64,000 nt of DNA from Granulicella mallensis (GTDB taxonomy: Bacteria > Acidobacteriota > Terriglobia > Terriglobales > Acidobacteriaceae). Position 1 is the first letter of the stretch; each line of letters starts with the position of its first letter. The position numbers were made by a program, and so were the translations under genes. The stretch spans positions 1-64,000 of the forward strand of contig NZ_JACHIO010000011.1 of NCBI RefSeq assembly GCF_014203225.1, read 5' to 3'. The notes below the pieces were generated by a model. It ran no database searches. It worked only from the letters and a program-made list of their open reading frames with translations, and was not told the origin of the DNA. This document shows positions 4,919-48,368 of this stretch, piece by piece.

Positions 4919-4919
4919 A

Positions 4920-10091: not shown

Positions 10092-10861
10092 GCTCCGCAG
10101 AGATAGACGCCGATTTCAGCGAGCTGATTGGTGGCTCCGAAGCAGTCGCCGGTAACACCGCCGATGCGGCGTTTGTAGTAGAGGCCGGTGAGCGCCGTCA
10201 GTGCGATAGAGACAAGGATCGGAGCGACCGCGCCCGTTCTGAGCAGACAGGCTGCGACGGCAAAGCTGAAGAGGGTGCCGCCGATGAGGGTACCGGTTGA
10301 AGTGAGGCGTGCGATGCGCGCGCCCTGTCCATTGAACTCCTGTCCTTCGGTTTGTGTGCGGGCTGAAGGGAGGAAGTAGCTGAGGGGAAGCGTCGTCCAG
10401 CGGCAGAGCATGTGGGCCACGATGAGATAGGTGGCAACCTGTGCCAGGGGGAGAGAGGCGATCAGCACGATGCGGCCAAGAAGGCTTAGCCCGAGCGCGA
10501 TGCCTCCGTAGCTGCCGATGCGGCTATCGCGCAGGATGCGCAGAATCTGTTCGCGGTCGTTTCCGCCGCCGAAGCCATCGGCGGTATCGGCCAGGCCGTC
10601 CTCATGCAGGCAGCCTGTTACGAGGACGAGGCATAGAACAACGAGGAAGGCAGCGACAAGCCTGGGAAGATGCGGGGCGAGCAGAAGATGCAACAGTGCG
10701 GCTATACCGCCGACCACAATGCCTACGAGCGGGAAGAACTTGACAGCTCGTGAGAGGGCGTCGACCTCGTAGGGTTGCGATGGGACGGGAATACGTGTGA
10801 GGAACTGGAGGGCGGAGAGAAACTCCGATCCTGTCCTGCGGATATAGGCGGCCGGGCTCAT
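10079..10861 (-). CDS. cobS: adenosylcobinamide-GDP ribazoletransferase (cobalamin synthase)
   Basis: A 260-residue polytopic membrane protein that joins adenosylcobinamide-GDP and alpha-ribazole (phosphate). The diagnostic motif GCLHEDGLADTADGFGGG is present at about residues 85-102, followed by RDSRIGSYGGIALGL. SALQFLTRIPVP near the N-terminus is typical. The start ATG overlaps the cobT stop as TAATG. Confidence 0.95.
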   Translation of the reverse strand: MSPAAYIRRTGSEFLSALQFLTRIPVPSQPYEVDALSRAVKFFPLVGIVVGGIAALLHLLLAPHLPRLVAAFLVVLCLVLVTGCLHEDGLADTADGFGGGNDREQILRILRDSRIGSYGGIALGLSLLGRIVLIASLPLAQVATYLIVAHMLCRWTTLPLSYFLPSARTQTEGQEFNGQGARIARLTSTGTLIGGTLFSFAVAACLLRTGAVAPILVSIALTALTGLYYKRRIGGVTGDCFGATNQLAEIGVYLCGAWTL

Positions 10862-11937
10862 TACGCGGCTCCGCTCACGCCTGCCGAGGTGAAGGTCGCC
10901 ATCTGCGTGTAGAGCGCGACGGCCGATTCGAGGATGGGCATGGCGAGCACTGCGCCGGTACCTTCGCCGAGACGCATGTGGAGGCTCAGAACGGGCACAA
11001 GGTTCAGGTGCTGCAGCAGGAGCCTGTGTCCTGGTTCTTCGGACTGGTGTCCCGCGATGAGATAGCCCTGGGTGTTGGGAGCGATGGCAACGGCAATGGC
11101 TGCGGCTGCGGTGGAGATGAATCCATCAATGACGATGACGAGCTTGTGCTGTGCGGCCGCGAGAACCATACCGGCCATCGCGGCGATCTCCAGACCGCCG
11201 ACGCAACGCAGCACTTCAAGCGGCGAAGCATTCGCAGCGGAACCGCCGAAGTGCTTCTCCACGACGGCCTGCACGACGTTGACCTTGCGGGTATGAGCTT
11301 CAGGATTGAGGCCTGTGCCTCGGCCCGTAGCTTCAGCGGCTGCAGAGCCTGTGAGGGCGCAGGTGATGGCACTGGCCGAGGTCGTATTGCCGATGCCCAT
11401 CTCGCCGATGGCAATCATCGTCTGCCCGGCGGCAACGGCGTTGGCGGCGATCTCCGCGCCGACGGCGAGGGCCTGCGCCAGTTGCTCGTCTGTCATTGCT
11501 GCCTCGTGCAGCATGTTACGCGTGCCTCTTGCAACCTTGTGGTGGAGCAGTCCGGGGATATCGTTGAATTCGGTGTCAACGCCGACATCGACGATGCGAA
11601 GTTCTGCGTGATGCAGTCGCGCCAGCACGTTGACCGCAGCTCCCTGGGCGAGGAAGTTCAGCACCATCTGGTGCGTGACTTCGCGGGGGTAGGCGCTCAC
11701 GCCCTCTGCGGTGATCCCGTGGTCCGCGGCGAAGACGTAGACGCCTTTGCTGATGGGCTCAGAGAACTTTTCTTCGCGAATGGCGACGATCTGGGCTGCA
11801 AGATCTTCCAGCCGTCCCAGGCTGCCGAGGGGCTTCGTAAGGGTGTCAAGATGCGCTCGTGCTTTTTGTCGCCAGAGTTCGCTGGGGAGCTCGATGCCGT
11901 GCGTGATCGAATCGAGTTGTTGCGTGAGGGAATTCAT
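10861..11937 (-). CDS. cobT: nicotinate-nucleotide:dimethylbenzimidazole phosphoribosyltransferase
   Basis: A 358-residue cytosolic enzyme that activates dimethylbenzimidazole to alpha-ribazole phosphate. The start is the ATG at 11937, sharing ATGA with the cobB stop; an upstream in-frame extension is shadow. Signatures are TKPLGSLGRLEDLA, FAADHGITAEGVSAYP, GEMGIGNTTSASAI, and RLGEGTGA with the catalytic glutamate. It works with the neighbouring BluB, CobC and CobS. Confidence 0.95.
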   Translation of the reverse strand: MNSLTQQLDSITHGIELPSELWRQKARAHLDTLTKPLGSLGRLEDLAAQIVAIREEKFSEPISKGVYVFAADHGITAEGVSAYPREVTHQMVLNFLAQGAAVNVLARLHHAELRIVDVGVDTEFNDIPGLLHHKVARGTRNMLHEAAMTDEQLAQALAVGAEIAANAVAAGQTMIAIGEMGIGNTTSASAITCALTGSAAAEATGRGTGLNPEAHTRKVNVVQAVVEKHFGGSAANASPLEVLRCVGGLEIAAMAGMVLAAAQHKLVIVIDGFISTAAAAIAVAIAPNTQGYLIAGHQSEEPGHRLLLQHLNLVPVLSLHMRLGEGTGAVLAMPILESAVALYTQMATFTSAGVSGAA

Positions 11938-13319
11938 CGGGTCTCCTGGGCGATAGCTTCTGTTGCCGAATGCCGGATCTGTTCCACCAGGTGCTGTGCC
12001 ACTGCTGGCGCCGTGCGAAAGTGCAGATGGACGTAGCTCGCGAGAACATTCCCGAGACTGTAGCCTTCCTCCTCCTGCTGTCCGGAGAGGGAGTACTGCA
12101 CGCAATAGCTGGTGGATATTGTGGGTGCGTTGGTGACGCGAGAGTAGTGGAAGCTATGGCCTCGCAGAACTGTCCCGCGTGTGCCGAGCAGACAATCCTG
12201 CGTGAGTTCAACGGTGACGTAGCCGAATCGAACGAGCTTGCTCGTCATCTCCATCGCGAGGGGGAGCACGCTCGCCATGTTGTGCGCTGTGCCGTCGGCT
12301 GCTGTGAGCCGCTGCGAGAGATAGATCATGCCGCCGCACTCGGCATAGACAGGACGATCAGAGGCGGCGAAGTTTCGAATCGATGAGAGCATCGAGGTGT
12401 TTGCGCTGAGTTGCTGCGCATAGAGCTCCGGATAACCGCCGCCCAGGTAGAGAGCATCGAGGTCAGAGGGAAGCGATGCATCCAGCAAGGGGCTGAACGG
12501 CACAATCTCTGCACCGTGCTGGCGCAGGAGATCGAGGTTGTCCTCGTAGTAGAAGCAGAATGCGCGGTCTCGCGCTACGCCGATTCGTACGGTGGTCTTC
12601 GGTGTCTCTCGCAGTGAGGGAGCCTGTTCGAGATCCAGTCCGCATTCAAGCGAGAGGAGCGCGTCCAGATTAAGGTGCTCTTCCGCGAGGGCGGCCAGCC
12701 TGTCGAGCTGTTGCTCGTGGTCTTCTGACTCCTCTGCCGTGCGCAGGCCGAGATGCCGTTCGGGAATGGAGATCAAGGGCTCGCGCGGCAGCCAGCCGAG
12801 GATAGGTGTCTGGCAGGCGGAGAGGATCGCCGTTTCGAGCATCCTGAAGTGGCGCTCGCTGGCGACGCGGTTGAGAATAATGCCTGCCAGCGGAAGCTCG
12901 CGGTCGAAGTGCTCGAAGCCCAGGACGACGGCAGCGATGCTCCTGGCACTCTTGCTGGCATCCAGCACCAGGACGACGGGCAGCTTCAGCAGTTTGGCGA
13001 TCTCTGCGCTGCTCCCGGTTTCGGTGGCGCCGTCCTTGCCATCGAACAGGCCCATCATGCCTTCTACAACGACGGCATCGGCGCCCTCCGCGTTTTGGCG
13101 GAGAACTTCTTCGTTCGCTTCGCGTGAGAGCATCCACGTGTCGAGGTTGCGCGCGGTGCGCCCGGCGATGCGCGTATGGTGGCCTGTATCGAGAAAGTCG
13201 GGGCCGCCTTTGAAGGGCTGAACGATTAGCCCGCGGCGACGCATGGCGGCGAGGATCGCAAGCGTGACGGTGGTTTTGCCCACCCCGCTTGCGGTTCCGG
13301 TGATGAGAAATCCCTTCAC
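11934..13319 (-). CDS. cobB: cobyrinate a,c-diamide synthase (CobB/CbiA)
   Basis: A 461-residue glutamine amidotransferase. It amidates the a and c carboxylates of (hydrogeno)cobyrinate using ATP and glutamine. The N-terminal P-loop GTASGVGKTTV is followed by PFKGGPDFLDTGHH. EGMMGLFDG and the C-terminal class I amidotransferase Cys in YAECGGMIYLSQ complete the family pattern. The GTG start overlaps the cobU stop (GTGA). Whether it acts before (aerobic) or after (anaerobic) cobalt insertion cannot be told from sequence; the neighbouring cobN favours the aerobic substrate. Confidence 0.93.
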   Translation of the reverse strand: MKGFLITGTASGVGKTTVTLAILAAMRRRGLIVQPFKGGPDFLDTGHHTRIAGRTARNLDTWMLSREANEEVLRQNAEGADAVVVEGMMGLFDGKDGATETGSSAEIAKLLKLPVVLVLDASKSARSIAAVVLGFEHFDRELPLAGIILNRVASERHFRMLETAILSACQTPILGWLPREPLISIPERHLGLRTAEESEDHEQQLDRLAALAEEHLNLDALLSLECGLDLEQAPSLRETPKTTVRIGVARDRAFCFYYEDNLDLLRQHGAEIVPFSPLLDASLPSDLDALYLGGGYPELYAQQLSANTSMLSSIRNFAASDRPVYAECGGMIYLSQRLTAADGTAHNMASVLPLAMEMTSKLVRFGYVTVELTQDCLLGTRGTVLRGHSFHYSRVTNAPTISTSYCVQYSLSGQQEEEGYSLGNVLASYVHLHFRTAPAVAQHLVEQIRHSATEAIAQETR

Positions 13320-13876
13320 GATTGCACCTTCGCGGGGACGGAGCCTTTGAGTGCGAGGGGAAGCCCCGCGATCATGAAAAGCACCGTGTCCGCTGTCGCG
13401 GCAACACGCTGATTGATCTCGCCGACGAGGTCGCGAAAACGGCGGCCAAGTTCGTAGGCCGGAACGACGCCGCTCCCCACCTCGTTGGATACGAGAACGA
13501 CGGCGCAGGGTGCTGTGCTGAGTGCGAGACAGAGGTCTGCGATATGTGCCTGGAGCTGTTCGGAGTCGTCACCGCAGGCCTCGAGGAGGTTCGCTGCGAA
13601 GAGCGTGAGGCAGTCGATGAGAAGGACGTCGCAATTCTTACCTGCTTCGCGAATCGTCTTGGACAGGTGGAGCGGCTCTTCGATGGTGGCCCAGGACGAG
13701 GGCCGTTCGGCGCGATGACGCTCGATCTTGGCGTGCATCTCGGCATCGTCGCGGCGTTCCGCGGTGGCTACGAACGTAACTCGCTCGGCACGTTCGCCGA
13801 TTTGTTGCGCATACCGGCTTTTGCCGCTGCGAACGCCGCCGAGCACGAGGGTTACGGAGACGGGTTGATGCTGCAT
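13316..13876 (-). CDS. cobU: adenosylcobinamide kinase / adenosylcobinamide-phosphate guanylyltransferase
   Basis: A 186-residue bifunctional enzyme from the ATG at 13876, with AGGAG 6 nt upstream. It carries the P-loop GGVRSGKSRYAQ at the N-terminus, then FVATAERRDDAEMHAKIERH with the region that carries the guanylyl acceptor, and VLVSNEVGSGVVPAYELGRR near the end. It is the first gene of the eleven-gene operon and lies about 130 bp downstream of a cobalamin riboswitch. An in-frame extension to 14146 would translate the riboswitch itself and is rejected. Confidence 0.94.
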   Translation of the reverse strand: MQHQPVSVTLVLGGVRSGKSRYAQQIGERAERVTFVATAERRDDAEMHAKIERHRAERPSSWATIEEPLHLSKTIREAGKNCDVLLIDCLTLFAANLLEACGDDSEQLQAHIADLCLALSTAPCAVVLVSNEVGSGVVPAYELGRRFRDLVGEINQRVAATADTVLFMIAGLPLALKGSVPAKVQS

Positions 13877-14008
13877 ACATCGCTCCTGGCATCCAGTCTG
13901 AGATCGCCGGACACTGAGCGGGAGATGATAAATAGGCAGCCGCCACGATGCCTGGAAGGCCGTGGATATGCTCTTCAACTCTCCCAGCGAAGTTGAATTA
14001 AGCCCGTC

Positions 14009-14150
14009 TCTGGCCGGTCTCCTGACTTGCGCCTCGTGGAGCTTGAGCGGCCTTCCCAGGACTCTGATCCCAGTGACCTTATATGCCAAACTCTTAGCGC
14101 TTACAGTTACGCGGTAGTGACGGATTTGCACCGTCTTCCCGAACACCAGA
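14009..14150 (-). promoter_or_regulatory. cobalamin (AdoCbl) riboswitch upstream of cobU operon
   Basis: Read on the minus strand, the conserved elements occur in order: GGGAAGACGGTGCAAATCCG, then CGTAACTGTAA, then CACTGG, CTGGGAAGG, and the B12 box GCAAGTCAGGAGACC. A short closing helix TCTGG/CCAGA pairs 14146-14150 with 14009-14013. The distance to cobU (about 130 nt) fits regulation of the operon by transcription or translation. When the cofactor is abundant, expression of the downstream genes should fall. Confidence 0.95.
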
Positions 14151-14235
14151 TATCCGAGTTATACCGCTCGCGGAGGAGGTGGGTCAATCGTAGGGAGTGT
14201 GGTATGGCGGAGAATTGGATGTCTTTGTCGTTGCC

Positions 14236-14433: not shown

Positions 14434-16155
14434 TCATCCCCGGAATTGTTGCAGGGCCAGAACCATGTCATCACTGGATTCGAGATTCTCCAGCCCCACA
14501 TACTCTGCCGCCATGACCTCTGCCAACTGGCGGGGGCGTCCCAGCCGTTCGGCGGAGTTTTCGGTATCGACTACGAGGGCGGTGGTCTTGATCCGGCTCG
14601 CAATCTCCAATGCCTCCTGCCAGGGGTCGCCCTCACCCAGAGAGACATTTGCTCGCCCATCGGTGAGAAGCACCAGGACCGTTGCCGGTGTCAGGTAGTT
14701 TTGTGCGAGATCGAGGGCATGGGCCAAAGGGGTTCTGCCGCCCGTGGGTAGGTACTCGAAGGCGGTGATGGCTTCGGGGAGTGTCCGCGTCGGCTCAAGC
14801 ACCACCTGCGCTGCCGTGCCGCGAAAGACGATGATGGCAGCCTCGTCGCCATTCTTGAAAGAACGTGTCAGCAGGCTGGAAGCCGCGCCTTTGACCAGGC
14901 GCATTCTCTCCTGCGCTGCGTGAGAGCCGCTTGAATCGATGACGAAGAGATATCGGGTGCCTGTTGTCGGCTGCCGCACTCGTTCGTGGAGATCCTGCAG
15001 GCGCGGTTGGAGGCTTCCGGTCTCCATTACGGCGTGGTTCAAGGTAGCGCGAAGGTCGAGCTCCACGGGAGTTTCAGACCGGCGTGTTCCGACCACCGGC
15101 CCCGGCTGGTTCGCCAGTGCCGGAGCGCTGCTGCCGCGTGTCGCGGCGTCCTCAAACTTCGCTTGCACCTTGGGCGTTTTGATCTCCCTGGGAGCGAAGA
15201 TTCGTTCCTGGGCCTCACCTGCGTTCTGCGCCTGGTCTTTGTCGGAGGCCTCGGAAGGAGCGTCTGGCGGTGTCTGGGGTGCTGGCGGTTGGGGTGCCGG
15301 GGGACGGCCTCGCTCCTGGGCGCGATGAGCCAGCACCAGCGGCAGTACGGCGGCTACATGGTGGGGCTGTACCGAGACATCGCCGGTGAGGGCGGCGTAG
15401 GCGATGGAGGCTCGAACCGCCGCGAGATCGGCGCGCAGGGAGCGCACGCCTCTTTCGCAGACGGCGGCACTGATCTGCGCGGGAATCTCTCGCGAGCACA
15501 GAACGCCGGAGAGCTGCGCGCGCGCGCTGAGGATCTGCTCGCGAAGCTGCTGTTCTATCTCCGCCCAATCGGCGAGGAAGCCGGCCGGATCGCGGTCGAA
15601 GGCGATCCGGCGCTCGACGACGGTTTGCCGTTCGGCTGGCTCCAGAGGCGCAGTGATGTTGACCGCGAGCGCAAAGCGGTCGAGCAGTTGGGGACGCAGC
15701 AGGCCTTCTTCCGGGTTCATGCTGCCGAGCAGGACGAACTCGGCTGCGTGCGAGGCGCTGAAGCCTTCGCGCTCGATCACGTTGACTCCGCTGGAGGCAG
15801 TGTCGAGCAGGGTGTCGCCCAGATGGGCCGGGAGAAGGTTGACCTCGTCCACGTAGAGGACGCCGCCGTGCGCTTCGGACAACAGACCGGGCTTTAGCGC
15901 GGGGTCGCCTTTGAGCGCGCGCTCCAGGTGCAGGCCGCCGAGCAGACGGTCTTCAGTCGCCCCGATCGGCAGATTGATGAAGGGACTGGGCTGGGGCAGG
16001 AGAGCGGCAAGCGCGCGCGCCGTGGTGGTCTTGCCGGCGCCTTTGTCTCCTCGCAGGAGCACGCTGATGCGCCAGTCCACGGCTGCGAGCAGCAGGGCCA
16101 GCTTCATCTCGTGCTGTCCGGCGATGGCGGAGAACGGATAGATGGACGGCTTCAT
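14434..16155 (-). CDS. fused ChlI/ChlD-type AAA+ and von Willebrand A chelatase subunit
   Basis: 573 residues from the ATG at 16155, which shares ATGA with the cobN stop; a longer open frame to 16830 is shadow. The N-terminal AAA+ module has Walker A GDKGAGKTTTARAL and Walker B GVLYVDEVNLL. A Pro/Ala/Gln-rich linker lies at about residues 275-340. The C-terminal VWA domain keeps the metal-binding site in FVIDSSGS and LTDGRANVS. The protein is thus BchI and BchD in one chain. Coupled to cobN, it should be the ATPase partner of cobaltochelatase, replacing the separate CobS/CobT subunits of the Pseudomonas-type enzyme. Confidence 0.88.
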   Translation of the reverse strand: MKPSIYPFSAIAGQHEMKLALLLAAVDWRISVLLRGDKGAGKTTTARALAALLPQPSPFINLPIGATEDRLLGGLHLERALKGDPALKPGLLSEAHGGVLYVDEVNLLPAHLGDTLLDTASSGVNVIEREGFSASHAAEFVLLGSMNPEEGLLRPQLLDRFALAVNITAPLEPAERQTVVERRIAFDRDPAGFLADWAEIEQQLREQILSARAQLSGVLCSREIPAQISAAVCERGVRSLRADLAAVRASIAYAALTGDVSVQPHHVAAVLPLVLAHRAQERGRPPAPQPPAPQTPPDAPSEASDKDQAQNAGEAQERIFAPREIKTPKVQAKFEDAATRGSSAPALANQPGPVVGTRRSETPVELDLRATLNHAVMETGSLQPRLQDLHERVRQPTTGTRYLFVIDSSGSHAAQERMRLVKGAASSLLTRSFKNGDEAAIIVFRGTAAQVVLEPTRTLPEAITAFEYLPTGGRTPLAHALDLAQNYLTPATVLVLLTDGRANVSLGEGDPWQEALEIASRIKTTALVVDTENSAERLGRPRQLAEVMAAEYVGLENLESSDDMVLALQQFRG

Positions 16156-19100
16156 TGGGCGATCTCGCGCCTCCGTTCGCCCTGGGCCTCTAACAGCGTC
16201 TCGCTCTCCAGCAAGACTTCGCGCAGGGCGTTCAAGGTCTCTGGTGCGGGGTTCTCCCAGAGCTCGCGCCGGGCTGCTTCGAGCAGCCGTTCGGCGATGG
16301 CGTTCAATGCCCACGGATTGGAGGCGCCTAGGAAGTCGCGCATCTCCTGGGACAGGGCATAGTGCTCGGCGAGGCCCTCGTAGACAAAGTCCGGAGCGAT
16401 GTGTGCTGTGGAGTCGAAGCCGAAGATGTAGTCCACCGTGGCCGAGAGTTCCAGACCGCCCTTGTAGCCGTGCCGCTTGATGCTCTCGATCCACTTGGGG
16501 TTGATGACGCGGGAGCGGTAGACGCGCAGCGCTTCTTCTTTGAGGTCGCGGACCTGTGCATTCTCGGGGCGAGAGCTGTCGCCGAAGTAGGCCTTGGGTT
16601 GCACGCCTGTGAGCGCGCGGATGGAGGCGATCATGCCGCCGTGGAACTGAAAGTAGTCGTCGGAGTCGAAGATGTCGTGCTCGCGATTGTCCTGGTTGTG
16701 CAGCGCGACCTGGATCGACTTCAGGCGTTCCGCAAACACAGGCTGGGCATCGACGCCGTCCGTGCCCTTGCCGTAGGCGTAGCCGCCCCAGGCGAGGAAG
16801 GCGCGTGCAAAGTCCTCGTCGCCATGCCAATTGCCGGTTTCGATCAGCGGGAGAATGCCGGCGCCATAGGAGCCCGGCTTCGAGCCGAAGATGCGATAGC
16901 GAGCCTGGGCTTCCGCCTCATGCTCGGGAAGATCTTTGTGCGCCTCGAGATCGGCGAGGTAGTGCTTGCGTGGGAAGTTCTGTTCGAGCGGTTCGTCCAG
17001 CTCGACGACAAGGGAGATGGCCTGGTCGAACATATCGATCAGATGGGGAAAGGCATCGCGGAAGAAGCCGCTGATACGCAGCGTAACGTCCACGCGGGGG
17101 CGACCCAGTTGTTCGAGCGGAATGACAGCAACGCCTTCCAGTCTGCGGGACTGCGCGTTCCAAACGGGCTGCACGCCGAGCAGCGCAAAGGCTTCGGCGA
17201 GATCGTCGCCGTGGGTGCGCATCTGCGAGGTTCCCCAGACGCTCAGGCCCATCATCTCGGGGTATTTGCCTTCCTCTTTGCGGAAGCGTTCGATGGCTTC
17301 GCGCGCAAGTTGCTGCCCCACCCGCCATGCGGCCTGTGACGGCAAGGCACGCGGATCGACGGCGTAGAAGTTACGGCCTGTCGGCAGAACGTGGGCCATG
17401 CCGCGTGTCGGTGCGCCGGCCGGTCCGGCGGGAATGTATTTGCCTTCGAGGGCGTCGAGAAGGTGCTCGATCTCGTCGCCGGTCTGTTCGAGGTTCGGCA
17501 CAAGTTCCTCGCAGGCGAAGATAAGGGATTGCGTAATGTCCTCTGATTGGAGGCCGAGCACGGCGCGCTGGACATCGGCGATCTTTTCCGTGCGAAAGCC
17601 GAGGGTCTCCAGCATGGTGAAGAGATCGAGCGAGGCACGGTCGAGCAGTTCCAGCACGTCAGCTCGTGTGTAGCAGGTCTGGTCGAGGATCTCTTGCGGC
17701 TCTTCCAGCCGTTCTCCTGGCTTGTCGAGAAGGCTCGCAAGGTCGAAGGAGAACGCCGTCGCGAGGCTCGCCTGCAGGCTGGGTGTGCTGATGTTCGCCA
17801 ACCGCGTGAGCGAGCGAAGCATCTCGGGGAGCGGGGGCATCTGTCCCAGGATATGGAGGCCGTCGCGGATCTGGGCCATGCCCAGCTCGCAGAGATAACC
17901 GTCGAGGTCTTCGATGAGATGCGCAACCTCGTTGCCGGTCATCGAAGCCAGCGTCGTTGGAACACCCTCCGGCGTCAGCGCGTCGTCCCACTCATGAGTG
18001 TGGTCGCCGCGTTCGCGCGTGAGCATCGTCTTGGTGTCGAGATCGGTCTTGAGGTTGGTGCGCTCCACCAGCTCCCAGATCTGCTGTTGCAGGTACGGCA
18101 GCTTCTTGGGGTCCAGCTTTTCTACGGCGTAGTACTCGTTCACGAGCTGGTTCAGCTCTGCCAGGGGACCATAGGTTTCGGCATTGGTCATCGGCGGTGT
18201 GAGATGGTCGACGACGATGGCGTGGGCCCGCCGCTTGGACTGGCTGCCCTCGCCGGGGTCGTTGAGGATGAACGGGTAGACGAGCGGAAGATCGCCCAGC
18301 AGCAGGTCGGGGTAGCACTCGCCTGAGAGGCCTATGCCCTTGCCGGGAAGCCACTCAAGCGTGCCGTGCTTGCCCATGTGGACAATAGCGTCCGCGCCCC
18401 AGCCGCCCTCGGATTGCGGCGTTCCCAGCCAGCGGTAGAAGGCCGTGTAGTGGTGCGTCGGCGGCAGATCGGGCGTGTGATAGATCGTGTCGGGGTCGAT
18501 GCCATAGCCGCGCGGAGGCTGTAGAGCGATGAGCGCATTGCCGAGATCCATCGCGGCGAAGAGGTAGTCGTGCTCATCTCCCCACGGCTCTTCCTGCTCG
18601 ATGGAGACGACCTTGCCACCGATGGTGGGGAGCAGTTTCTTGTCTGTCTTTTTGGCAGGCAGAACGCTGAAGCCCCGGTCCTGGGGCTGACCCCAGAAGT
18701 CCTGCATCCTGCGGTTCGGCCGCTCGGGAAATGCGGCAAAGATCTTCCGGTAAACGGCTCGGGAGAAGCGCTTGGCTTGCGCGGGGTCGAGCGGATAGTT
18801 GTCGTCGTAGGTGCCATGCTGCAGCAGACTCTGCATCAACTCATCCGAGGTTTCTGGCAGGGCAGAGATGTTGTAACGGCGCGCACGCATGGCGTGGAGA
18901 GTGGTCAGAAGGCTCGCCGGTGTATCGAGGCCCACGGCACCGCCAACCTGCGAGGCCTTCGCCGCGGAGTTGGTCAGCACGAAGGCGATGCGGCGTTCGC
19001 GATTGGACTTGCGGCGCAGAGCCGCAAGACGTGCAGCAATTCCGGCAACGCGGTCCACTCTGTCCGGGTGGGCGACGTAGAGGTTGTCTGTACCGGCGGC

Positions 19101-20513
19101 ACTGCGTTCTTTGAATGAGACCGGCACGGTGATGATGCGGCCATCGAACTCGGGAATGGCGACGTTCACGGCGGTGTCGAGGGCATTGATTCCGCGACGC
19201 GAGCCTTCCCACGCTCCGTACTGCATGCCGCTCGCGATGGCCTGCAGCACGGGAATGCCGAGCTGTTCGAGAGAGCCCACGGCCTCGCCTGCAATCGTTA
19301 CAGCGCCGGTGTTCACCTCTCCCAGTGCAAACGACAACGTCGAGATCAGAACGTCTGCTTTGCCTTCGATCAGGCGGAAGGCTGCGGGGCGTCCGTTCTC
19401 CTTCGACTTGAGGCTTGAGGTGAAGATGCAGAGCGCATTCATGCCCTTGCTCTTTAGCGCTTCGGCGATCGCGTCGATGAAGCTGGTGTTTCCGCTCATG
19501 CGATGCGCGCGATAGAAGAGCACCGCTGCGGTCGGCTGGGCGGGATCGGCCTGGCGCTGCCAGTCTTCAAAGGTCGCGGCGTCCATCTCCGGCAGGTAGA
19601 TTCCGTGCTCCGGCATTGGGCTTGGAGCGGTGTAGCCGAAGCCGGTAAGCATCAGGCGGTCGGAGAGGAAGCGGAACAACTCGCCGAAGTTGGAGACGCC
19701 TCCGAGATCGAGGTAGCCCGAGGCTGTCTGCATCACATCGGCGGGCACGTTGATCGTCTCGGAAAACTCCGAGGCGTTATCGCCTGTGCCGCTCACCAGC
19801 ACCAGCGACTGCCCACGCTCGATGCAGGCTGCCTTCAGTCGGTCGAAGCCGGGGATGCCGCTGAGCGGCCCATGGCAGCGCACGACGATAACCTTTGCCT
19901 TGCTCATCTCGCCGAGGATCAGCACGTTCATCTGGTCTTCGGTGCGGAGCGCGTTCAGGGAAAAGCCACTGACGCGCAGCTCTTCCGGCAGCGTCTCCGA
20001 GGCCTTGATGAGCGTCAGCAGATCGGTGTCCGCGTGCGAGAGCAGCATGATCGCGCCATTCGGTTGCACGATCTCAAGCTGGGTTAGCCCCTCTGCCGGG
20101 CTGGGCAGGCGAACGTCCCAGTCGTAGTAGTTGAATACGTATTCGCTCAGCTCGGAGGGCGGCTGCAGGAAGCGATCCGCCTTCAGCATCGAGTCGATGT
20201 ACTCGTAGATCTGGCGTACCTGCCACTCGCTGTTGACCGAGTGGAACCAGATGCTCTTGCCGTCGAAGACGAGACTGGCGACGTTCGCCAGGGCGCAGGG
20301 CCCGATGCACCCGCCCTTGGTCAGGTGGACGTCGTTGCGGATCTTGCGCTTGAGCCACTCCTCTGTGTAGACGTCGACCGGCACCGCGGCATAGCCGCGC
20401 TCGGTGATGCCGCAGCAGCAGCCGGTGTAGCAGTAGGTCAGGTGCGCGCGGTGCTGCGTGATGTTGAAGGCGCGCCCATCGGCACGGATGACGCGTTGGC
20501 GGTAGGTCGGCAT
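16152..20513 (-). CDS. cobN: cobaltochelatase CobN with N-terminal 2Fe-2S ferredoxin-like domain
   Basis: About 1453 residues from the ATG at 20513 (GGAG upstream); the frame is open to a GTG at 20585. This is the large subunit that inserts cobalt into hydrogenobyrinic acid a,c-diamide. The first ~95 residues are not classical CobN. They contain CYTGCCCG and, after about 30 residues, GGCIGPCALANV, a thioredoxin-like 2Fe-2S ferredoxin pattern. The remainder is CobN: YRAHRMSGNTSFIDAIAEAL, ADAIVHMGKHGTLEWLPGKG and the C-terminal VDYIFGFDSTA segment. The domain could sense iron/redox or deliver electrons, which is inference. It is preceded by its own cobalamin riboswitch and followed by the chlI-chlD fusion. 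Confidence 0.93.
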   Translation of the reverse strand: MPTYRQRVIRADGRAFNITQHRAHLTYCYTGCCCGITERGYAAVPVDVYTEEWLKRKIRNDVHLTKGGCIGPCALANVASLVFDGKSIWFHSVNSEWQVRQIYEYIDSMLKADRFLQPPSELSEYVFNYYDWDVRLPSPAEGLTQLEIVQPNGAIMLLSHADTDLLTLIKASETLPEELRVSGFSLNALRTEDQMNVLILGEMSKAKVIVVRCHGPLSGIPGFDRLKAACIERGQSLVLVSGTGDNASEFSETINVPADVMQTASGYLDLGGVSNFGELFRFLSDRLMLTGFGYTAPSPMPEHGIYLPEMDAATFEDWQRQADPAQPTAAVLFYRAHRMSGNTSFIDAIAEALKSKGMNALCIFTSSLKSKENGRPAAFRLIEGKADVLISTLSFALGEVNTGAVTIAGEAVGSLEQLGIPVLQAIASGMQYGAWEGSRRGINALDTAVNVAIPEFDGRIITVPVSFKERSAAGTDNLYVAHPDRVDRVAGIAARLAALRRKSNRERRIAFVLTNSAAKASQVGGAVGLDTPASLLTTLHAMRARRYNISALPETSDELMQSLLQHGTYDDNYPLDPAQAKRFSRAVYRKIFAAFPERPNRRMQDFWGQPQDRGFSVLPAKKTDKKLLPTIGGKVVSIEQEEPWGDEHDYLFAAMDLGNALIALQPPRGYGIDPDTIYHTPDLPPTHHYTAFYRWLGTPQSEGGWGADAIVHMGKHGTLEWLPGKGIGLSGECYPDLLLGDLPLVYPFILNDPGEGSQSKRRAHAIVVDHLTPPMTNAETYGPLAELNQLVNEYYAVEKLDPKKLPYLQQQIWELVERTNLKTDLDTKTMLTRERGDHTHEWDDALTPEGVPTTLASMTGNEVAHLIEDLDGYLCELGMAQIRDGLHILGQMPPLPEMLRSLTRLANISTPSLQASLATAFSFDLASLLDKPGERLEEPQEILDQTCYTRADVLELLDRASLDLFTMLETLGFRTEKIADVQRAVLGLQSEDITQSLIFACEELVPNLEQTGDEIEHLLDALEGKYIPAGPAGAPTRGMAHVLPTGRNFYAVDPRALPSQAAWRVGQQLAREAIERFRKEEGKYPEMMGLSVWGTSQMRTHGDDLAEAFALLGVQPVWNAQSRRLEGVAVIPLEQLGRPRVDVTLRISGFFRDAFPHLIDMFDQAISLVVELDEPLEQNFPRKHYLADLEAHKDLPEHEAEAQARYRIFGSKPGSYGAGILPLIETGNWHGDEDFARAFLAWGGYAYGKGTDGVDAQPVFAERLKSIQVALHNQDNREHDIFDSDDYFQFHGGMIASIRALTGVQPKAYFGDSSRPENAQVRDLKEEALRVYRSRVINPKWIESIKRHGYKGGLELSATVDYIFGFDSTAHIAPDFVYEGLAEHYALSQEMRDFLGASNPWALNAIAERLLEAARRELWENPAPETLNALREVLLESETLLEAQGERRREIAQ

Positions 20514-20713
20514 GGCTACATCTGCTCCGAAGGGCTGCTTTGACGGGTTGGCTGGACGAGATGCGGGCCGCTGAGGAAAGGGCACGGAGGCATCGCTGCA
20601 CGCGCGACACCGGTCGCGAAGCTGCGCAGGGTCAGCGGGGAGGGGTACGGGTTGTCTTCGATGGAACGTAAGCTCAGGCGCAGGGTTTCTGTCTCCGCAG
20701 AAAGTTGCAGTTC

Positions 20714-20885
20714 GAACCCTGGCAGGTCTCCTGGCTCAAAGACGACATCTAGGTGTCTGCCGCTATCCTTCCCCGGTCTTTTGCCGAGTGGTACCGCTAG
20801 CGGCTCATCTTTGTTTACAGTGGCGGGACCGCGCCGGTTTTGCTCCGGACTTCCCTTTTAAGCCCATGTGGGCACCGTAGGTCAA
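20714..20885 (-). promoter_or_regulatory. cobalamin riboswitch upstream of cobN
   Basis: On the minus strand the order is GGTGCCC...GGGC, AAAAGGGAAGTCCGG, the strongly conserved GCGGTCCCGCCACTGTAA, GGGGAAGG, and GAGCCAGGAGACCTGCC. This is an unmistakable AdoCbl riboswitch. It ends about 200 nt before the cobN ATG. The gene-free stretch 20514-20931 is therefore explained by this leader and a roughly 45-bp spacer to the cbtA stop. Confidence 0.95.
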
Positions 20886-20931
20886 CACCATTAGTATCAC
20901 GCGTAATCCCACGCGGGACGTCACGATTTTG

Positions 20932-21690
20932 TCAGGAGTAACGCATCTCGTCCGAGGTAGGGAAAGCTCGCCCGCTTTGTTGAGCCGCGGCTTCCTGCCG
21001 CTCGGTCAGAGCTCCGAAGAGCAGGCCCAGCACGCTCCACAGCACGACCTGCGTCTCCCACGATGCGATGCGGAACTTCCAGAGCAGAGAGGCCGGAAAG
21101 CCTGCGGGGACTTCGTCGATGACAGGCATGAAATGAGCGCTGATTCCCGTCAGCAGTACGAACAAAAGGGCCGCGAGCAGCGACGCGTTCCAGGGGCCGA
21201 AGGGCTTCTTCAAGCGCCGTCCGGCCTTGATCGCCAGAATCAGGGACATCAGGGAGATGGCGATGAGCAGAAAATAGGCCCCGGTACGAACGCCGATCGT
21301 CTCCGGATTTCCAACTGACGGAGGATTTGCAGGGTACTTGAGCGACGGAACCAGAACGATGGCGATGAATCCCAGGCCCGCGATCAACGCGGAGAGCGCT
21401 CTGGGCCTGGCCGCGCTGAGACGGCCCCGCGCAAAGGCGAACACGATTCCGAAGATGCCGCCGAGCGCGGTGCTGTAGACCACAGCCCCGGTCAGCAATC
21501 CCAGGCCGCTTTGAATTTTGCGGCTGACCATCTCCGGCTCGGGAGCTTCGCCTTTGGCCTGGTCCATGCTGGTTTCAAAGGCGATAGCCCTGTCGACCTG
21601 AGGCTCGCCGATCCAGCGCGCGAACGCAAAGACGATCAACCCGGCTACGAGGCCGACCAGCATTCCACGAAGAAGCAGCGTACGGGCCAT
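20932..21690 (-). CDS. cbtA: CbtA-family cobalt transporter subunit
   Basis: A 252-residue polytopic membrane protein with about five hydrophobic segments. LLLRGMLVGLVAGLIVFAFA, with the GEP following, opens the protein; SGLGLLTGAVVYSTALGGIFG and VPSLKYPANPP follow in the middle. HFMPVIDEVPAGFPASLLW with FRIASW is the CbtA C-terminal signature. Together with CbtB it forms a predicted B12-regulated cobalt uptake system. The pair lies just upstream of cobN and supplies its metal. Confidence 0.9.
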   Translation of the reverse strand: MARTLLLRGMLVGLVAGLIVFAFARWIGEPQVDRAIAFETSMDQAKGEAPEPEMVSRKIQSGLGLLTGAVVYSTALGGIFGIVFAFARGRLSAARPRALSALIAGLGFIAIVLVPSLKYPANPPSVGNPETIGVRTGAYFLLIAISLMSLILAIKAGRRLKKPFGPWNASLLAALLFVLLTGISAHFMPVIDEVPAGFPASLLWKFRIASWETQVVLWSVLGLLFGALTERQEAAAQQSGRAFPTSDEMRYS

Positions 21691-21695: not shown

Positions 21696-21914
21696 TTAGT
21701 GGCAGGGAAAGCCGAGGAGATGGCGTCCATCGTGCACGAACTCATGGACAGCACGACCATGAATGAGAGAGGTGGCTCCCTGTTCCGCGCCGACAAAGTA
21801 GATCAGGAGCAGCATCAGCAGACCGCCGAAGAGCGCCCAGGGCAACAGCTCCCGCAACGGAACAACGGGGATAGATACCGGGGATGCAATGGAACCTGCG
21901 ACAGATTGTGACAT
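21696..21914 (-). CDS. cbtB: CbtB-family cobalt transporter small subunit
   Basis: A 72-residue protein from the ATG at 21914, with AGGAG 8 nt upstream. A single transmembrane helix (LLPWALFGGLLMLLLIYFVG) is followed by a short His-rich tail ending HEFVHDGRHLLGFPCH. The terminal histidines and cysteine are the expected CbtB metal-ligand motif. It is followed by cbtA with a 5-bp gap. No riboswitch is visible upstream of it in 21915-22122. Confidence 0.88.
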   Translation of the reverse strand: MSQSVAGSIASPVSIPVVPLRELLPWALFGGLLMLLLIYFVGAEQGATSLIHGRAVHEFVHDGRHLLGFPCH

Positions 21915-22122
21915 GTGGAAGTCTCCTGAACTGGTTGAGGGATAACGCAAGCTCAACTGAATCTGAGCCTAGTGAAGGCGAGGGGGAGTGTCAAGGAGTG
22001 GGGTAGGTCATGCGATTGCGCGAAGTGCAAACTGCGACGCTAAAGCGTCGGGGAACGCGCTGCGCGCAATCGGGTGACAGGTCCTGATAGCCGAAGCCCT
22101 CTCCCACGTAGAATGATTTGCG

Positions 22123-22731
22123 ATGCAACCCTCCGAACCGCAAACTCTACCTGCCCGAATCACCTTGATCAGCCACGCCGCCACTCTTGCCCTGAAACGC
22201 GCTTCCTTCCCGCTGGACGAAGCTCTTGTCGAAGGCGAGCCGGAGAAGATTGCTGCCCTGGGCTGGACGGCTCCGCGCACACAGCAGATCTGCGCAGGCC
22301 CTGAGCAGCGCACGCGACAGACGGCGACAGCCCTGGGCCTTGAAGCATCTGTAGAAGGTGGGCTTGCCGATGTCAGCTACGGAGAGTGGAGTGGCAAACA
22401 GATCGACGAGATACAGGCGAGCGATCCGATAGGGTTAGCGGCCTGGCTTACCGATGTAAGTGCCGCGCCTCACGGCGGTGAGTCCTTCGTGCAGTTGATT
22501 GCCCGTGTGGGGCATTGGATGGAAGCGCAGACCGGTGCCGGGCACACCTTAGCCGTGACTCATCCCGCCGTGATTCGTGCGGCAATTCTCTATAGCTTGC
22601 AAGCTCCGCCGGAGTCCTTCTGGCGGCTTGAAATCTCGCCGCTCTCGGTGACTGACCTGCGATTTAACGGGAGGCTTTGGACGGCGCGTTCCACTGGATG
22701 TGCTCTCTCTCGCTCTTCAGGAAACTCATAG
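22123..22731 (+). CDS. histidine phosphatase family protein (CobC/PGM-like)
   Basis: 202 residues. The catalytic His is in LISHAATLA, where the usual RHG arginine is replaced by Ser, and the second His is in VTHPAVIRAA. AGPEQRTRQTATALGLEA and LADVSYGEWSGKQIDEI follow the family order. The nearby riboswitch and cobalamin locus suggest a second alpha-ribazole-phosphatase-like role, but cobC is already present in the operon. The RH-to-SH change may alter or reduce activity. It is the only gene between cbtB and the third riboswitch. Confidence 0.78.
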   Translation: MQPSEPQTLPARITLISHAATLALKRASFPLDEALVEGEPEKIAALGWTAPRTQQICAGPEQRTRQTATALGLEASVEGGLADVSYGEWSGKQIDEIQASDPIGLAAWLTDVSAAPHGGESFVQLIARVGHWMEAQTGAGHTLAVTHPAVIRAAILYSLQAPPESFWRLEISPLSVTDLRFNGRLWTARSTGCALSRSSGNS

Positions 22732-22767
22732 GTCCTCTCAGAGGCTGTGTGTTAGTCTGGCAAAACG

Positions 22768-22940
22768 TTCCAGGTGCCCGCAAGGGCATAAAAGGGAAGT
22801 CCGGTGTAAGTCCGGCACGGTCCCGCCACTGTAATCAGGAAAACGACTTTTCATAGGCCACTCGGTGCGATCGGGGAAGGTGAAGAGTCGGGAGCTTCGT
22901 AACAGAAGCTTCGCCTGATAGTCAGGAGACCTACCTGGAA
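22768..22940 (+). promoter_or_regulatory. cobalamin riboswitch upstream of TonB-dependent receptor
   Basis: Plus-strand elements in order are: a closing helix TTCCAGGT (22768-22775) pairing with ACCTGGAA (22933-22940), GCCCGCAAGGGC, AAAAGGGAAGTCCGGTG, CACGGTCCCGCCACTGTAA, GGGGAAGG, and GTCAGGAGACCTACC. All core features of an AdoCbl riboswitch are present. It ends right before the receptor gene, so it probably controls translation initiation of that receptor. Confidence 0.96.
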
Positions 22941-23029
22941 TCAATTTGATTCTTTTCCGCGTGGAAACGGGAAGCGATCGCTCATTTCATTTGAGCTTTG
23001 TGCCTCTTTGCCACGGATTGAGGTGCAGT

Positions 23030-26000
23030 TTGCTCGATTCGATTTTGTTGTTCGTTGGTTGTAAGACAAAACAAACTATCTTTCTCCTCGCTATTTTGAT
23101 CTTCACCAGTCTGCGGATATTTGCGGCTGTAGGTGGAAGTATTACCGGCACGGTTACGGATGCTACGGGAGCTGCTATTCCCGCAGCCAAACTGGTGCTG
23201 GTCAGCCAGGCGCAGCAAACGACCTATCGAGCAGTCTCGAATGCGCAGGGAGCCTATTCCTTCCTCAACCTTCCGGTGGGAAGATACGACCTTACGGTTA
23301 CCGGAACCGGCTTTGCCACGAAGAAGCTGACAGGCCTGGTCGTCGATACGGATGCCAGTCTTCGCGCCGATGTCGCGCTTGCCGTTGGTGGTACGTCCGA
23401 TGCGGTAACGGTAAGCGGCGAGACGAGTGCGCAGTTCGATACCAGCTCGACGCATCTGGGGGAAGTTGTCTCGGGTGCGGAGATGACAGCACTACCACTC
23501 AACGGCAGGAGTTACACCGACCTGCTTTCGATTCAGCCTGGCGTTGCGCCTGTATCCACGCTGCTTCCCAACGCCGTAATCATGGCTGGAGTGACAGGCG
23601 GCATCTCTCCCTCGGGGGATGAGAATCCCGGCAATGTTTCGATCAATGGCCAACGCGAGTCTTCCAATGGCTTCATGGTCAATGGCGTGGATGTACAGGA
23701 GCACATGAACGGGGGAACGTCCATTGTTCCTGATCTGGATTCCATCGAGCAGTTCCGTGTGCTGACCAATAACTTCGATCCAGAGTACGGAAATTACAAC
23801 GGTGGCATGATCACTGTTGTCACCAAGTCCGGCAGCGGCCAGTTTCACGGAAAGGCCTTTGAGTTTTTTCGCAACACGGCCCTCGACGCTCGAGGCTACT
23901 TTGATCCCACTCGCCCGGCCTTCAAACAGAACCAGTACGGTGGAACGCTGGGTGGTCCTGTAAAACACACCAAACTATTCTTCTTCGCGGACTACCAGGG
24001 CACGCGTACAACACAGGGCATCTCTACGGGAAATATTTCGGTTCCTACTCTGGCTGAACGGAGTGGCGATTTCTCTGATGACGGGTCCACCTTTACAACG
24101 ACGGCCACCGTGAATGGTGCACAGGTTACGGTTCCAACGGTGGTCAGCGGTCCTTATCTCGCGTCTCAGGTCCTTGCACCAAAGCTCGGGTATCCCGTGA
24201 GTGCCGGAGAACCCTACAGCTTCACGGCAGGCGAATCGATGCCGGTCGATCCGAACCATCCAGACCAGAACCCAGGTACTTACTCGAACACCTGTACCAG
24301 CACGGCCCAATGTGTCTTCCCGGGCCTGAGGATTCCTCCGGCTGCATGGTCGGCACCCGGGAAGAATTTACTTCAATACATCCCCTCTCCGAACGTTGGT
24401 TCCGGTCAGTTTTCGACCTCAGCCTTCGCTGAGGTGAACCGCGATGACAAGGGTTCCGTGCGGCTCGATGCGGATACTCTCCTGGGCAGGATTTCGGGAT
24501 ATTACTTTATCGACGACTACACACTGGATAATCCGTATCCTGGCCAGCAGGGAGGAGCTTCCATTCCTGGCTTCGACGCTCTCACCCTGGGCCGCGCACA
24601 GCTTCTTTCGATCTCAGACACCAAGGTGATCGGAGCGAATGCGGTGAACGACTTCAATGTTGGGTACCTTCGTTACGCGAATGTGATCGGACAGCCAAAG
24701 GGCGGCCTTGGTGTCTCGCTTGCCTCGCAGGGGTTTACGACCGGGGCCGGTAGTTCGGGTATCTATGTTCAGGCCCCGCAGTTCGAGGGCGTTGAGAATA
24801 TTACCTTCCCGACCTTTGTCCTGGGTGTTCCTATTACGAATGAGACCCAGGTCAACAATACGTATTACCTGAGCGATGGCTTCTCGCGCGTCTTCGGAAC
24901 TCACACCGTCAAAGTTGGAGGACAGTTCCATGTTGACCAGGTCAATGAACATCCGAACGCGACCTTCAATGGGACCTTCAATATCAATGGGACGGAGACT
25001 GGTGATCCGTATGCCGATTTTTTGATCGGCACTCCGAGTAACTACACGCAGTCCTCCGGCCAGCCCTTTTACCTGCGCAATCACTATCTCGGTTTTTATG
25101 CGCAGGATAGCTGGCGCGTGCGCAGTGACCTTACGCTCAATGCGGGTGTTCGCTGGGACATCATCGAGCCCTGGTCGGAGAAGAACCATCAGCTTCAGAC
25201 TTATATTCCCGGGGAGCAATCTGTGCTGTATCCCGGAGCGCCTCTGGGCTTCGTCGTTGCGGGAGATCCTGGTGTGCCACAGACGATTGCTCCGACGAGC
25301 TATAAGAACTTTGCTCCACGCATCGGTCTGGCCTACGCGCCGCACTTTGAAAAGGGGCTTGGCCGTCTGCTCTTTGGTGAGTCAGGCAAGAGCAGTATTC
25401 GCGCGAGTTACGGCATCTTCTATACGGCTTTCCCTGGGCTATCTGCCGGCATCATGTATGCAGTTCCACCTTTCGGCTTCAACTATCTCAGCCCTGGACC
25501 GCCATTGCTTGAGTCGCCGTTTATCACGGCTGCATCAGGCGTCAATAACGGCCAGCGCTTTCCGTTCCCATTCCCACCGCACAACGTGTCCGCCTCCAAT
25601 CCCGACAACAATGTCGACTGGTCGAACTTCACTCCTATAGCGGCGGACCCATTTTTCTACTATCGCAATCGTGTGCCCTATATCAATAACTTCATGCTTT
25701 CTTTGCAGCGGCAGATTACACACAATCTAATTCTCACAGCGAGCTACGTTGGCAACCAGGGGCACCATCTTCTGAGTCTCGTCTCCGTCAATCCCGGCAA
25801 CCCTGCGCTCTGTTTGAGTCTTCAGAGTGTCGGCTGTGGCCCCTTCGGAGAAGACACGACCTACACTACCGCCAGCGGTCAGGTGATTCAGGGCACGCGC
25901 GTGGGGCAAGGATCGAATTATGGTGAAAACACCGCCGATAAATCCGCTGCGAACTCTAACTACAATGCTCTGGAGACTATGCTGAAGTATCAGCGGGGCG

Positions 26001-26671
26001 GTTCATCCTTTTTGCTCAGCTATACCTATGCCAAATCGATAGACCAGGGATCGAACCTTGGAGAGCAGCTCGATCCTATCGATCCCCGTCACTCCCGCGC
26101 TATTTCTGCCTACGATCTTAAGCACGACTTTGTCGCGACCTATAGCCTGTATCTTCCCTTTGACGAATTTCTGCATCGCGTAAATCGATGGACGACGGGT
26201 TGGACGCTGTCCGGTACGACCCGCTTCGCCAGCGGCTTGCCTGTCACTCTCTCCGACAACTCGGACAATTCCTTGCTGGGAACTCTCGGGAATGGAGCGA
26301 ATAACTTTCTGCTCGATACGCCGCAGTATTTGCCCGGACCGTTGCAGATCAATACGAACGGACGCAATGGCCGGCCTGCCTTCAATACGGCACTCTTTCC
26401 TGAAGAGATCCTGGGTCAGCTTGGAAATGCGAAGCGCCGGAACTTCTATGGACCGGGTATCAACAACTTCGATACTAGTTTGCAGAAGAGTATTCGGATC
26501 CAGGGTTCGAAATCCCTGGACCTTCGCCTGGAGGCGTTCAACGTGTTCAATCACACTCAATTCTTCGGGCCAGCCTCAGTGGATGGACAGGTGGAAGATC
26601 CCAACTTCGGGAAAATTGTGAGTGCGTCCGCTCCACGGTTGGTTCAGCTTGCGGCGAAGTTTGCATTTTAG
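23030..26671 (+). CDS. Oar-type TonB-dependent receptor under cobalamin riboswitch control
   Basis: About 1213 residues from a TTG at 23030 (GAGG 6 nt upstream); the frame is open to 22946, so the start is uncertain. A hydrophobic export signal around FLLAILIFTSLRIFAA is followed by a carboxypeptidase-regulatory-like domain beginning GGSITGTVTDATGAAIPAA. The plug has SINGQRESSNGFMVNGVD and ITVVTKSGSGQFHGKAFEF. The long beta-barrel ends in AAKFAF, the terminal Phe expected for outer-membrane insertion. The family usually imports oligosaccharides or is unassigned. The upstream riboswitch implies cobalamin, cobinamide or cobalt complexes as cargo. It is much larger than BtuB (about 600 residues). 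Confidence 0.9.
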   Translation: MLDSILLFVGCKTKQTIFLLAILIFTSLRIFAAVGGSITGTVTDATGAAIPAAKLVLVSQAQQTTYRAVSNAQGAYSFLNLPVGRYDLTVTGTGFATKKLTGLVVDTDASLRADVALAVGGTSDAVTVSGETSAQFDTSSTHLGEVVSGAEMTALPLNGRSYTDLLSIQPGVAPVSTLLPNAVIMAGVTGGISPSGDENPGNVSINGQRESSNGFMVNGVDVQEHMNGGTSIVPDLDSIEQFRVLTNNFDPEYGNYNGGMITVVTKSGSGQFHGKAFEFFRNTALDARGYFDPTRPAFKQNQYGGTLGGPVKHTKLFFFADYQGTRTTQGISTGNISVPTLAERSGDFSDDGSTFTTTATVNGAQVTVPTVVSGPYLASQVLAPKLGYPVSAGEPYSFTAGESMPVDPNHPDQNPGTYSNTCTSTAQCVFPGLRIPPAAWSAPGKNLLQYIPSPNVGSGQFSTSAFAEVNRDDKGSVRLDADTLLGRISGYYFIDDYTLDNPYPGQQGGASIPGFDALTLGRAQLLSISDTKVIGANAVNDFNVGYLRYANVIGQPKGGLGVSLASQGFTTGAGSSGIYVQAPQFEGVENITFPTFVLGVPITNETQVNNTYYLSDGFSRVFGTHTVKVGGQFHVDQVNEHPNATFNGTFNINGTETGDPYADFLIGTPSNYTQSSGQPFYLRNHYLGFYAQDSWRVRSDLTLNAGVRWDIIEPWSEKNHQLQTYIPGEQSVLYPGAPLGFVVAGDPGVPQTIAPTSYKNFAPRIGLAYAPHFEKGLGRLLFGESGKSSIRASYGIFYTAFPGLSAGIMYAVPPFGFNYLSPGPPLLESPFITAASGVNNGQRFPFPFPPHNVSASNPDNNVDWSNFTPIAADPFFYYRNRVPYINNFMLSLQRQITHNLILTASYVGNQGHHLLSLVSVNPGNPALCLSLQSVGCGPFGEDTTYTTASGQVIQGTRVGQGSNYGENTADKSAANSNYNALETMLKYQRGGSSFLLSYTYAKSIDQGSNLGEQLDPIDPRHSRAISAYDLKHDFVATYSLYLPFDEFLHRVNRWTTGWTLSGTTRFASGLPVTLSDNSDNSLLGTLGNGANNFLLDTPQYLPGPLQINTNGRNGRPAFNTALFPEEILGQLGNAKRRNFYGPGINNFDTSLQKSIRIQGSKSLDLRLEAFNVFNHTQFFGPASVDGQVEDPNFGKIVSASAPRLVQLAAKFAF

Positions 26672-44356: not shown

Positions 44357-44438
44357 AGCGCTACAGAAACGTACGAGGATGCGAGGTCTCTAAGCCGAGC
44401 CGCTCGCCTTGTCCTGCACCACTTTTCAGGAGCTTCCG

Positions 44439-48359: not shown

Positions 48360-48368
48360 AGATGTTCC

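Follow-up and report, generated by a model that had tools for sequence, protein, structure and literature searches.

A cobalamin riboswitch before a giant Oar-type receptor of Granulicella mallensis suggests an outer-membrane gate for cobalt

Introduction

Which nutrient is carried by a giant outer-membrane receptor whose gene lies directly behind a cobalamin (vitamin B12) riboswitch? The question is raised by a locus of Granulicella mallensis (Acidobacteriota, family Acidobacteriaceae), located in a window of 64,000 nucleotides (positions 1 to 64,000, forward strand, of contig NZ_JACHIO010000011.1, assembly GCF_014203225.1), which is the whole stretch of DNA analysed here. The gene encodes a predicted TonB-dependent receptor of the Oar type, and the original prediction, made from the sequence alone, had proposed it as a candidate new class of corrinoid importer, with B12, cobinamide or a cobalt chelate as cargo. 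Comparison with related genomes suggests that the cargo is cobalt rather than the vitamin. The receptor would then admit, through the outer membrane and under repression by B12, the cobalt needed to make B12 de novo, a reading to which we assign a probability of about one half.

Several known systems resemble this locus in part. In Novosphingobium aromaticivorans, a predicted cobalt TonB receptor likewise lies behind an adenosylcobalamin (AdoCbl) riboswitch, with cobalamin genes and genes of cobalt uptake next to it (PMC7689651). There a NiCoT permease and CobW adjoin the receptor gene. The window's receptor, which is of the Oar type, has CbtAB and CobN as neighbours instead, and its linkage to the riboswitch was followed across genomes. 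With an AdoCbl riboswitch and these neighbours, the window locus has the genomic pattern of a predicted B12-regulated cobalt TonB receptor. BtuB and the BtuB-like receptors of the family are also outer-membrane TonB receptors under cobalamin riboswitches, and the BtuB-like ones that were checked share the CarboxypepD_reg domain. Myxococcus xanthus Oar, like the window's receptor, has an N-terminal CarboxypepD_reg domain and is 300-400 amino acids longer than typical TonB-dependent transporters, a likeness by published description; its role is the secretion of PopC, and the accessible portion of the source reports no riboswitch or cobalamin context for it (PMC6434023). No riboswitch-controlled Oar-type receptor is described by title or abstract opening in the literature searched, most subscription journals lying outside its reach.

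Results

The receptor and its leader

The riboswitch before the receptor is complete, as had been predicted: the RF00174 match is full-length (model positions 1-189) and reaches 98.3 bits where the gathering score is 31.5, although its extent is that of Table 1 rather than 22768-22940. The open frame of the receptor spans 22946-26671 (+) and comprises 1241 codons when counted from the first TTG (22946), which falls within the riboswitch match. The start codon is most likely TTG 23030, situated six bases past the Shine-Dalgarno sequence GAGG (23020-23023), a position that fits the leaders of relatives; a hydrophobic signal-like stretch follows it. The Oar-type assignment was borne out by a CarboxypepD_reg domain and by PF25183 (574 bits), which is taken here to stand for the long Oar-type barrel, while the Plug domain PF07715 reaches 20.8 bits, below its cut-off of 23.9. 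The AlphaFold model is too poor to bear on the plug domain (mean predicted local distance difference test score 45.6, predicted template modelling score 0.37; alignment A3, 24 rows).

Regarding BtuB, the B12-receptor model TIGR01779 of NCBIfam has no match to the window's receptor, and the BtuB-like proteins of the family fall under its cut-off. A profile of the latter (A1) finds BtuB in the PDB as the closest solved structure (1nqf, E 1.2e-45), whereas no chain of the PDB matches the Oar profile (A2) at E 0.01. The expectation that BtuB-type receptors are about half the size of this one is right for E. coli BtuB (594-residue chains) and wrong for the riboswitch-controlled BtuB-like proteins of the family, which mostly have 730-880 amino acids. 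In two examples of these proteins both the CarboxypepD_reg and the plug domain exceed their cut-offs; CarboxypepD_reg falls below its own in the BtuB-like copy of the window genome.

Between aptamer and start codon, the DNA is conserved in 21 of the 22 riboswitch-Oar loci found (see below). The alignment of these 21 leaders, from which the divergent leader of genome G386 was excluded (G, C and L labels for genomes, contigs and loci are ours), outlines three hairpins in the window: one around CCGCGTGGAAACGGG, a second formed by GCTCA (22980-22984) and TGAGC (22992-22996), and a third in which GCCT (23002-23005) pairs with AGGT (23021-23024), masking three bases of the Shine-Dalgarno sequence. 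The four pairs of this last hairpin are standard in 20, 21, 20 and 20 of the 21 sequences according to RNAalifold, and the outer pair has double changes in two of them. The leader is supported mainly by conservation, because covariation contributes little (-0.34 kcal/mol). No T-run was seen behind the last hairpin when the aligned leaders were inspected by eye for a terminator; translational control is preferred for this reason, and the conserved hairpin over the Shine-Dalgarno sequence also suggests it. Taken together, switch and leader make B12-repressed expression of the receptor likely.

Conservation of the riboswitch-receptor pair

The receptor was searched in 120 and then in 398 genomes of the family, and the DNA 5' of the closest homologues was scanned with Rfam. 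Matches were obtained in all 398 genomes, where Oar-type receptors are numerous. RF00174 lies directly upstream and on the same strand at 17 of 43 close-homologue loci, the window included; the other positives come from four sets, with 1/4 (L091-L094; the positive is G066), 6/18, 7/8 and 2/12. The 17 genomes span four genera (g1, g35, g66 and g70). Among more distant homologues (L046-L070, 45-54% identical) none of 25 has RF00174 in the available flank.

A second scan, of named genomes and with a switch sequence profile, found a riboswitch directly upstream and on the same strand at 13 of 70 receptor loci. The profile was partly built from the same switches, and its agreement with the Rfam-positive loci is by construction; none of the Rfam-negative loci in the set was matched. 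Eight of the 13 overlap the previous 17 genomes (Granulicella sp. S156, L60, S190 and dw_53, two Edaphobacter lichenicola strains, Silvibacterium bohemicum and one metagenome-assembled genome) and five are additional (Edaphobacter modestus, E. aggregans and three metagenome-assembled genomes), which gives a total of 22 genomes with the pair. The linkage in relatives, whose absence the original prediction had named as a refutation, is therefore present.

The history of the pair was followed on a quick, midpoint-drawn tree of 57 receptors, which excludes that of G278, whose frame is split in two pieces. The 16 riboswitch-bearing receptors fall within one group of 33 rows (SH-aLRT, the Shimodaira-Hasegawa-like approximate likelihood ratio test, 99), and the switch labels change five times on the tree compared with 14.3 times in shuffles, none of 500 shuffles being as low. 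A single origin of the switch is not supported outright, given these five changes. For 16 of the 17 receptor riboswitches the nearest sequence is another receptor riboswitch; that of G386 is nearest to an NrdA riboswitch and looks like a separate recruitment.

Corrin-ring synthesis, CbtA and BtuB-like receptors in 30 genomes

The gene content of the 17 riboswitch-Oar genomes was compared with that of 13 genomes without the pair (G137, six of the same genus, and six others with unswitched homologues). These 30 genomes were chosen by us and not at random, and the Fisher tests on them ignore kinship. Corrin-ring synthesis, defined as at least six PF00590 matches, is encoded in 16 of the 17 and in 1 of the 13 (1.9e-6), and the contrast recurs within genera (3/3 against 0/6 in g1; 11/11 against 0/2 in g35). 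Similarly, a strong, over-cut-off CbtA is found in 16 of the 17, the exception being the 59% complete genome G160, and in 2 of the 13 (G174 and G072; 1.5e-5).

The BtuB-like receptor is present in all 30 genomes, yet its control differs between the two groups: a riboswitch precedes it in 3 of the 17 (G201, G160 and G066) against 11 of the 13 (all except G072 and G043; 6e-4). In the remaining 14 a permissive Rfam search (E <=0.5) revealed no riboswitch at the BtuB-like gene, and the same search did recover the weak one of the control G214.

FecCD/BtuC, in turn, is absent from 15 of the 17. Among all 17 and G137 it is strong in G066 and G137 alone, with a fragment in G201. The absence of BtuC was considered as proof against corrinoids and dropped: it does not discriminate, because comparison genomes lack it as well and because many FecCD-poor genomes of the family have a riboswitch-controlled BtuB-like receptor.

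Usual targets of B12 riboswitches in the family

At least 150 cobalamin riboswitches are present in 120 genomes of the family, of which 149 were examined. A BtuB-like receptor follows 88 of them (58 of a shorter kind, 30 of a longer kind) and an Oar-type receptor follows two, those of the window and G066. The remaining 59 precede other genes, which are ordinary B12 targets: 20 NrdA, 12 CobU, 3 CobN and others, three having fewer than 400 bases of DNA behind. MetE was recognised by Pfam behind one riboswitch, and several others are followed by similar N-termini.

Two side observations concern the BtuB-like receptors. In five cases (G012:C40, G085:C155, G023:C42, G114:C126 and G016:C68) tandem cobalamin riboswitches, about 130-155 bases apart, precede a single one of them. 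In addition, a FecCD match is found in 50 of the 120 genomes, and is strong in 16 of those, despite the frequency of BtuB-like receptors under riboswitch control; the passage of B12 through the inner membrane would thus appear unaccounted for by FecCD in many of these genomes.

Cobalamin and cobalt genes around the receptor

The cobalamin and cobalt context claimed for the receptor was confirmed: genes for a CobC-like phosphatase, CbtB, CbtA and CobN adjoin it in the window (Table 1). Three further riboswitches occur at E <=0.001 in the window genome (6.47 Mb, 52 contigs), before CobU, CobN and NrdA/NrdB, the first and last of which go beyond the original prediction. The one before NrdA/NrdB (C6:161716-161906, -) is the best of the genome with 120 bits and precedes a class I ribonucleotide reductase, NrdAB. 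The receptor riboswitch of G141 is arranged back to back with an NrdAB riboswitch. Corrin-ring genes are located on contig C24 of the window genome (CobI/CobJ, CobM, CbiE/CbiT and CbiC by model), so the organism should be able, by its genes, to make the corrin ring. Its BtuB-like receptor is without riboswitch and FecCD/BtuC has no match in the genome, BtuM and energy-coupling-factor routes being outside that search. NrdA, NrdB, CobI/J, CobM, CobH, BtuF, BtuC, BtuD, MetE and BluB were model-checked on one example each, and other assignments of these ten names are by BLAST to the checked examples.

Table 1. Features of the receptor locus and short riboswitch-like elements in relatives
Feature	Position	Strand	Support
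Cobalamin riboswitch aptamer (RF00174) of receptor gene	22755..22952	+	cmscan 98.3 bits, E 2.5e-23
Conserved expression platform, three hairpins	22955..23033	+	alignment of 21 leaders, RNAalifold
Oar-type TonB-dependent receptor, 1213 amino acids	23030..26671	+	PF25183 574 bits, PF13620 68.8 bits; start by leader comparison
CarboxypepD_reg domain of receptor	23138..23380	+	PF13620 68.8 bits, cut-off 32.3; residues 65-145 of 22946 frame
OMP_b-brl_4 (PF25183) barrel region	23819..26647	+	574 bits; residues 292-1234 of 22946 frame
CobC-like histidine phosphatase (alpha-ribazole phosphatase family), just 5' of riboswitch	22123..22731	+	PF00300 87.9 bits; TIGR03162 80.3 bits, under cut-off
CbtB, small subunit of predicted cobalt transporter	21696..21956	-	PF09489 38 bits, over cut-off; TIGR02459 under cut-off
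CbtA, predicted cobalt transporter	20932..21690	-	PF09490 248.5 bits; TIGR02458 under cut-off
Cobalamin riboswitch of cobaltochelatase genes (CobN)	20704..20894	-	94.0 bits
CobN, cobaltochelatase large subunit	16152..20585	-	TIGR02257 1147.5 bits, over cut-off
ChlI/ChlD-like chelatase ATPase subunit	14434..16830	-	TIGR02442 512.7 bits, under cut-off
Cobalamin riboswitch before CobU	13995..14165	-	96.1 bits
Late cobalamin genes: CobU, CbiA, CobT, CobS, cobalamin adenosyltransferase, BluB, CbiP, CbiB, CobD-like aminotransferase	3827..14146	-	CobD-like: TIGR01140 just under cut-off
Short riboswitch-like element	G264:C1:49408-49522	-	
Short riboswitch-like element	G305:C1:5179863-5179979	-	
Short riboswitch-like element	G066:C1:1860049-1860169	-	
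Short riboswitch-like element	G141:C16:157544-157678	+	

B12-related genes were recognised next to the receptor, in the flanking DNA that was read, at 9 of the 22 loci: the window, G158, G264, G305, G066, G141 (NrdAB), E. modestus (corrin-ring cluster), L318 (CbtA) and L348 (CobC). CbtA lies within about 5 kb of the receptor in the window, G158, G264, G305, G066 and L318. Among the named genomes, with flanks of up to 6 kb, a B12 neighbour accompanies 4 of 13 switched against 1 of 57 unswitched receptors (p 0.0035); most switched receptors are without a recognised one. Next to the receptor of G066 are BtuFCD-like genes, CbtA and CobN, and next to that of G137, which has no switch of its own, BtuFCD-like genes and CobN. 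The G066 locus (L092) combines these genes with two TP-methylase matches in the genome, that is, a cobaltochelatase without corrin-ring synthesis.

Short elements similar to cobalamin riboswitches, with 24.8-30.5 bits and therefore under the RF00174 gathering score, lie just 5' of CbtA in relatives (Table 1). A CbtB-like frame stands between element and CbtA in the three that were read. They are possibly a compact riboswitch variant controlling cobalt uptake; none was seen before the window's CbtBA.

Elsewhere in the window, a second Oar-type receptor (33229-36897, +; PF25183 705 bits) has no riboswitch, and 41699-59233 (+) encodes three large proteins with immunoglobulin-like Big_3_5 repeats, of which two also carry a pro-kumamolisin activation domain.

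Discussion

The observations fit a supply line in which the receptor serves B12 synthesis. When AdoCbl is scarce, the leader would leave the Shine-Dalgarno sequence free and the receptor would be made; it would then take up cobalt, most likely as a chelate, energised by TonB. CbtAB would move the metal over the inner membrane, and CobN with its ATPase subunit would put it into the corrin ring. Once B12 is plentiful, its binding to the aptamer would allow the hairpin covering the Shine-Dalgarno sequence to stop translation. Cobalt is favoured because a corrinoid receptor should benefit salvagers most, yet in the genomes compared it is ring-makers with CbtAB that retain the pair, and in most of the others the BtuB-like receptor is the one behind a switch. 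CbtAB-type transporters, for which cobalt is the predicted substrate, have been reported almost exclusively from species that possess the B12 pathway (PMC2667541). We also propose, with somewhat less assurance than for the cargo itself, that in B12-making Acidobacteriaceae riboswitch control has shifted from the BtuB-like receptor to a giant, cobalt-dedicated Oar-type receptor within a riboswitch-Oar/CbtAB/CobN supply line.

Several facts weigh against cobalt. G066 has the riboswitch-Oar pair with only two PF00590 matches and beside a BtuFCD-like transporter; conversely, G072 has corrin-ring genes (seven PF00590 matches) and CbtA with no switch on the receptor. The switch is missing from 26 of the 43 close-homologue loci; these include L227, where the sequence stops at the gene and leaves no DNA 5' of it, and G137, with a riboswitch in the opposite orientation. 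FecCD/BtuC is also absent from the comparison genomes G064, G116, G043 and G095, and G072 has two. The neighbours in G066 and G137 point to corrinoids. Finally, porins also let cobalt through the outer membrane (PMC7689651), and Anabaena, which has cobalamin riboswitches, takes up cobalamin by two riboswitch-linked TonB receptors (PMC10878165).

The strongest competitor is accordingly the import of cobalamin, cobinamide or other corrinoids by an Oar-type receptor that has replaced the BtuB-like one in these lineages, which we hold to be a serious possibility, at about one chance in three. BtuB-like receptors are the commonest targets of B12 riboswitches in the family, they are switchless in 14 of the 17 riboswitch-Oar genomes, as though control had passed to the Oar-type receptor, and BtuFCD-like genes adjoin the receptor in G066 and G137. 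However, apart from G066, the pair occurs among the 30 genomes in ring-makers and not in salvagers, and all 17 retain a BtuB-like receptor. The lack of FecCD in 15 of them also speaks against corrinoids, without being decisive for the reason given above. Moreover, the BtuF-like protein of G066 falls short of the BtuF cut-off, and likeness to BtuF has misled before, since CbtJ of the cobalt importer CbtJKL resembles it (PMC7689651). Of the cargoes originally listed, the corrinoids thus fare less well, the pair tracking corrin-ring genes and CbtA instead of salvage, and the cobalt chelate is the one favoured.

Another cargo of the B12 economy (a precursor, a lower-ligand base or another metal such as nickel), or protein export as in M. 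xanthus Oar, is improbable. No cargo is known to us, without a search in depth, for the acidobacterial Oar-type paralogues, which leaves room for such roles; nonetheless, B12 control and the CbtAB/CobN neighbours point to cobalt or corrinoids, and no secreted partner was recognised nearby, though most neighbours in relatives are unnamed. That the riboswitch belongs to another gene and stands before the receptor by chance or without function is very unlikely: several close homologues are indeed switchless, e.g., G072 (75%), G043 and G095 (both 71%), but the pair recurs in 22 genomes with differing surroundings, leader and Shine-Dalgarno hairpin are conserved up to the start codon in 21, and all but one of the 17 receptor switches are closest to one another.

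According to a 2021 review, the confirmed outer-membrane receptors include none specific for cobalt (PMC7689651). If cobalt is indeed the cargo, this would provide a nutrient for an Oar-type receptor of this phylum, and the protein could become the first demonstrated cobalt-specific outer-membrane receptor. The link between a conserved B12 switch, corrin synthesis and CbtAB gives these receptors a specific, testable cargo in Granulicella, Edaphobacter and Silvibacterium, and it suggests that B12 makers and salvagers place the same RNA control on receptors of different families.

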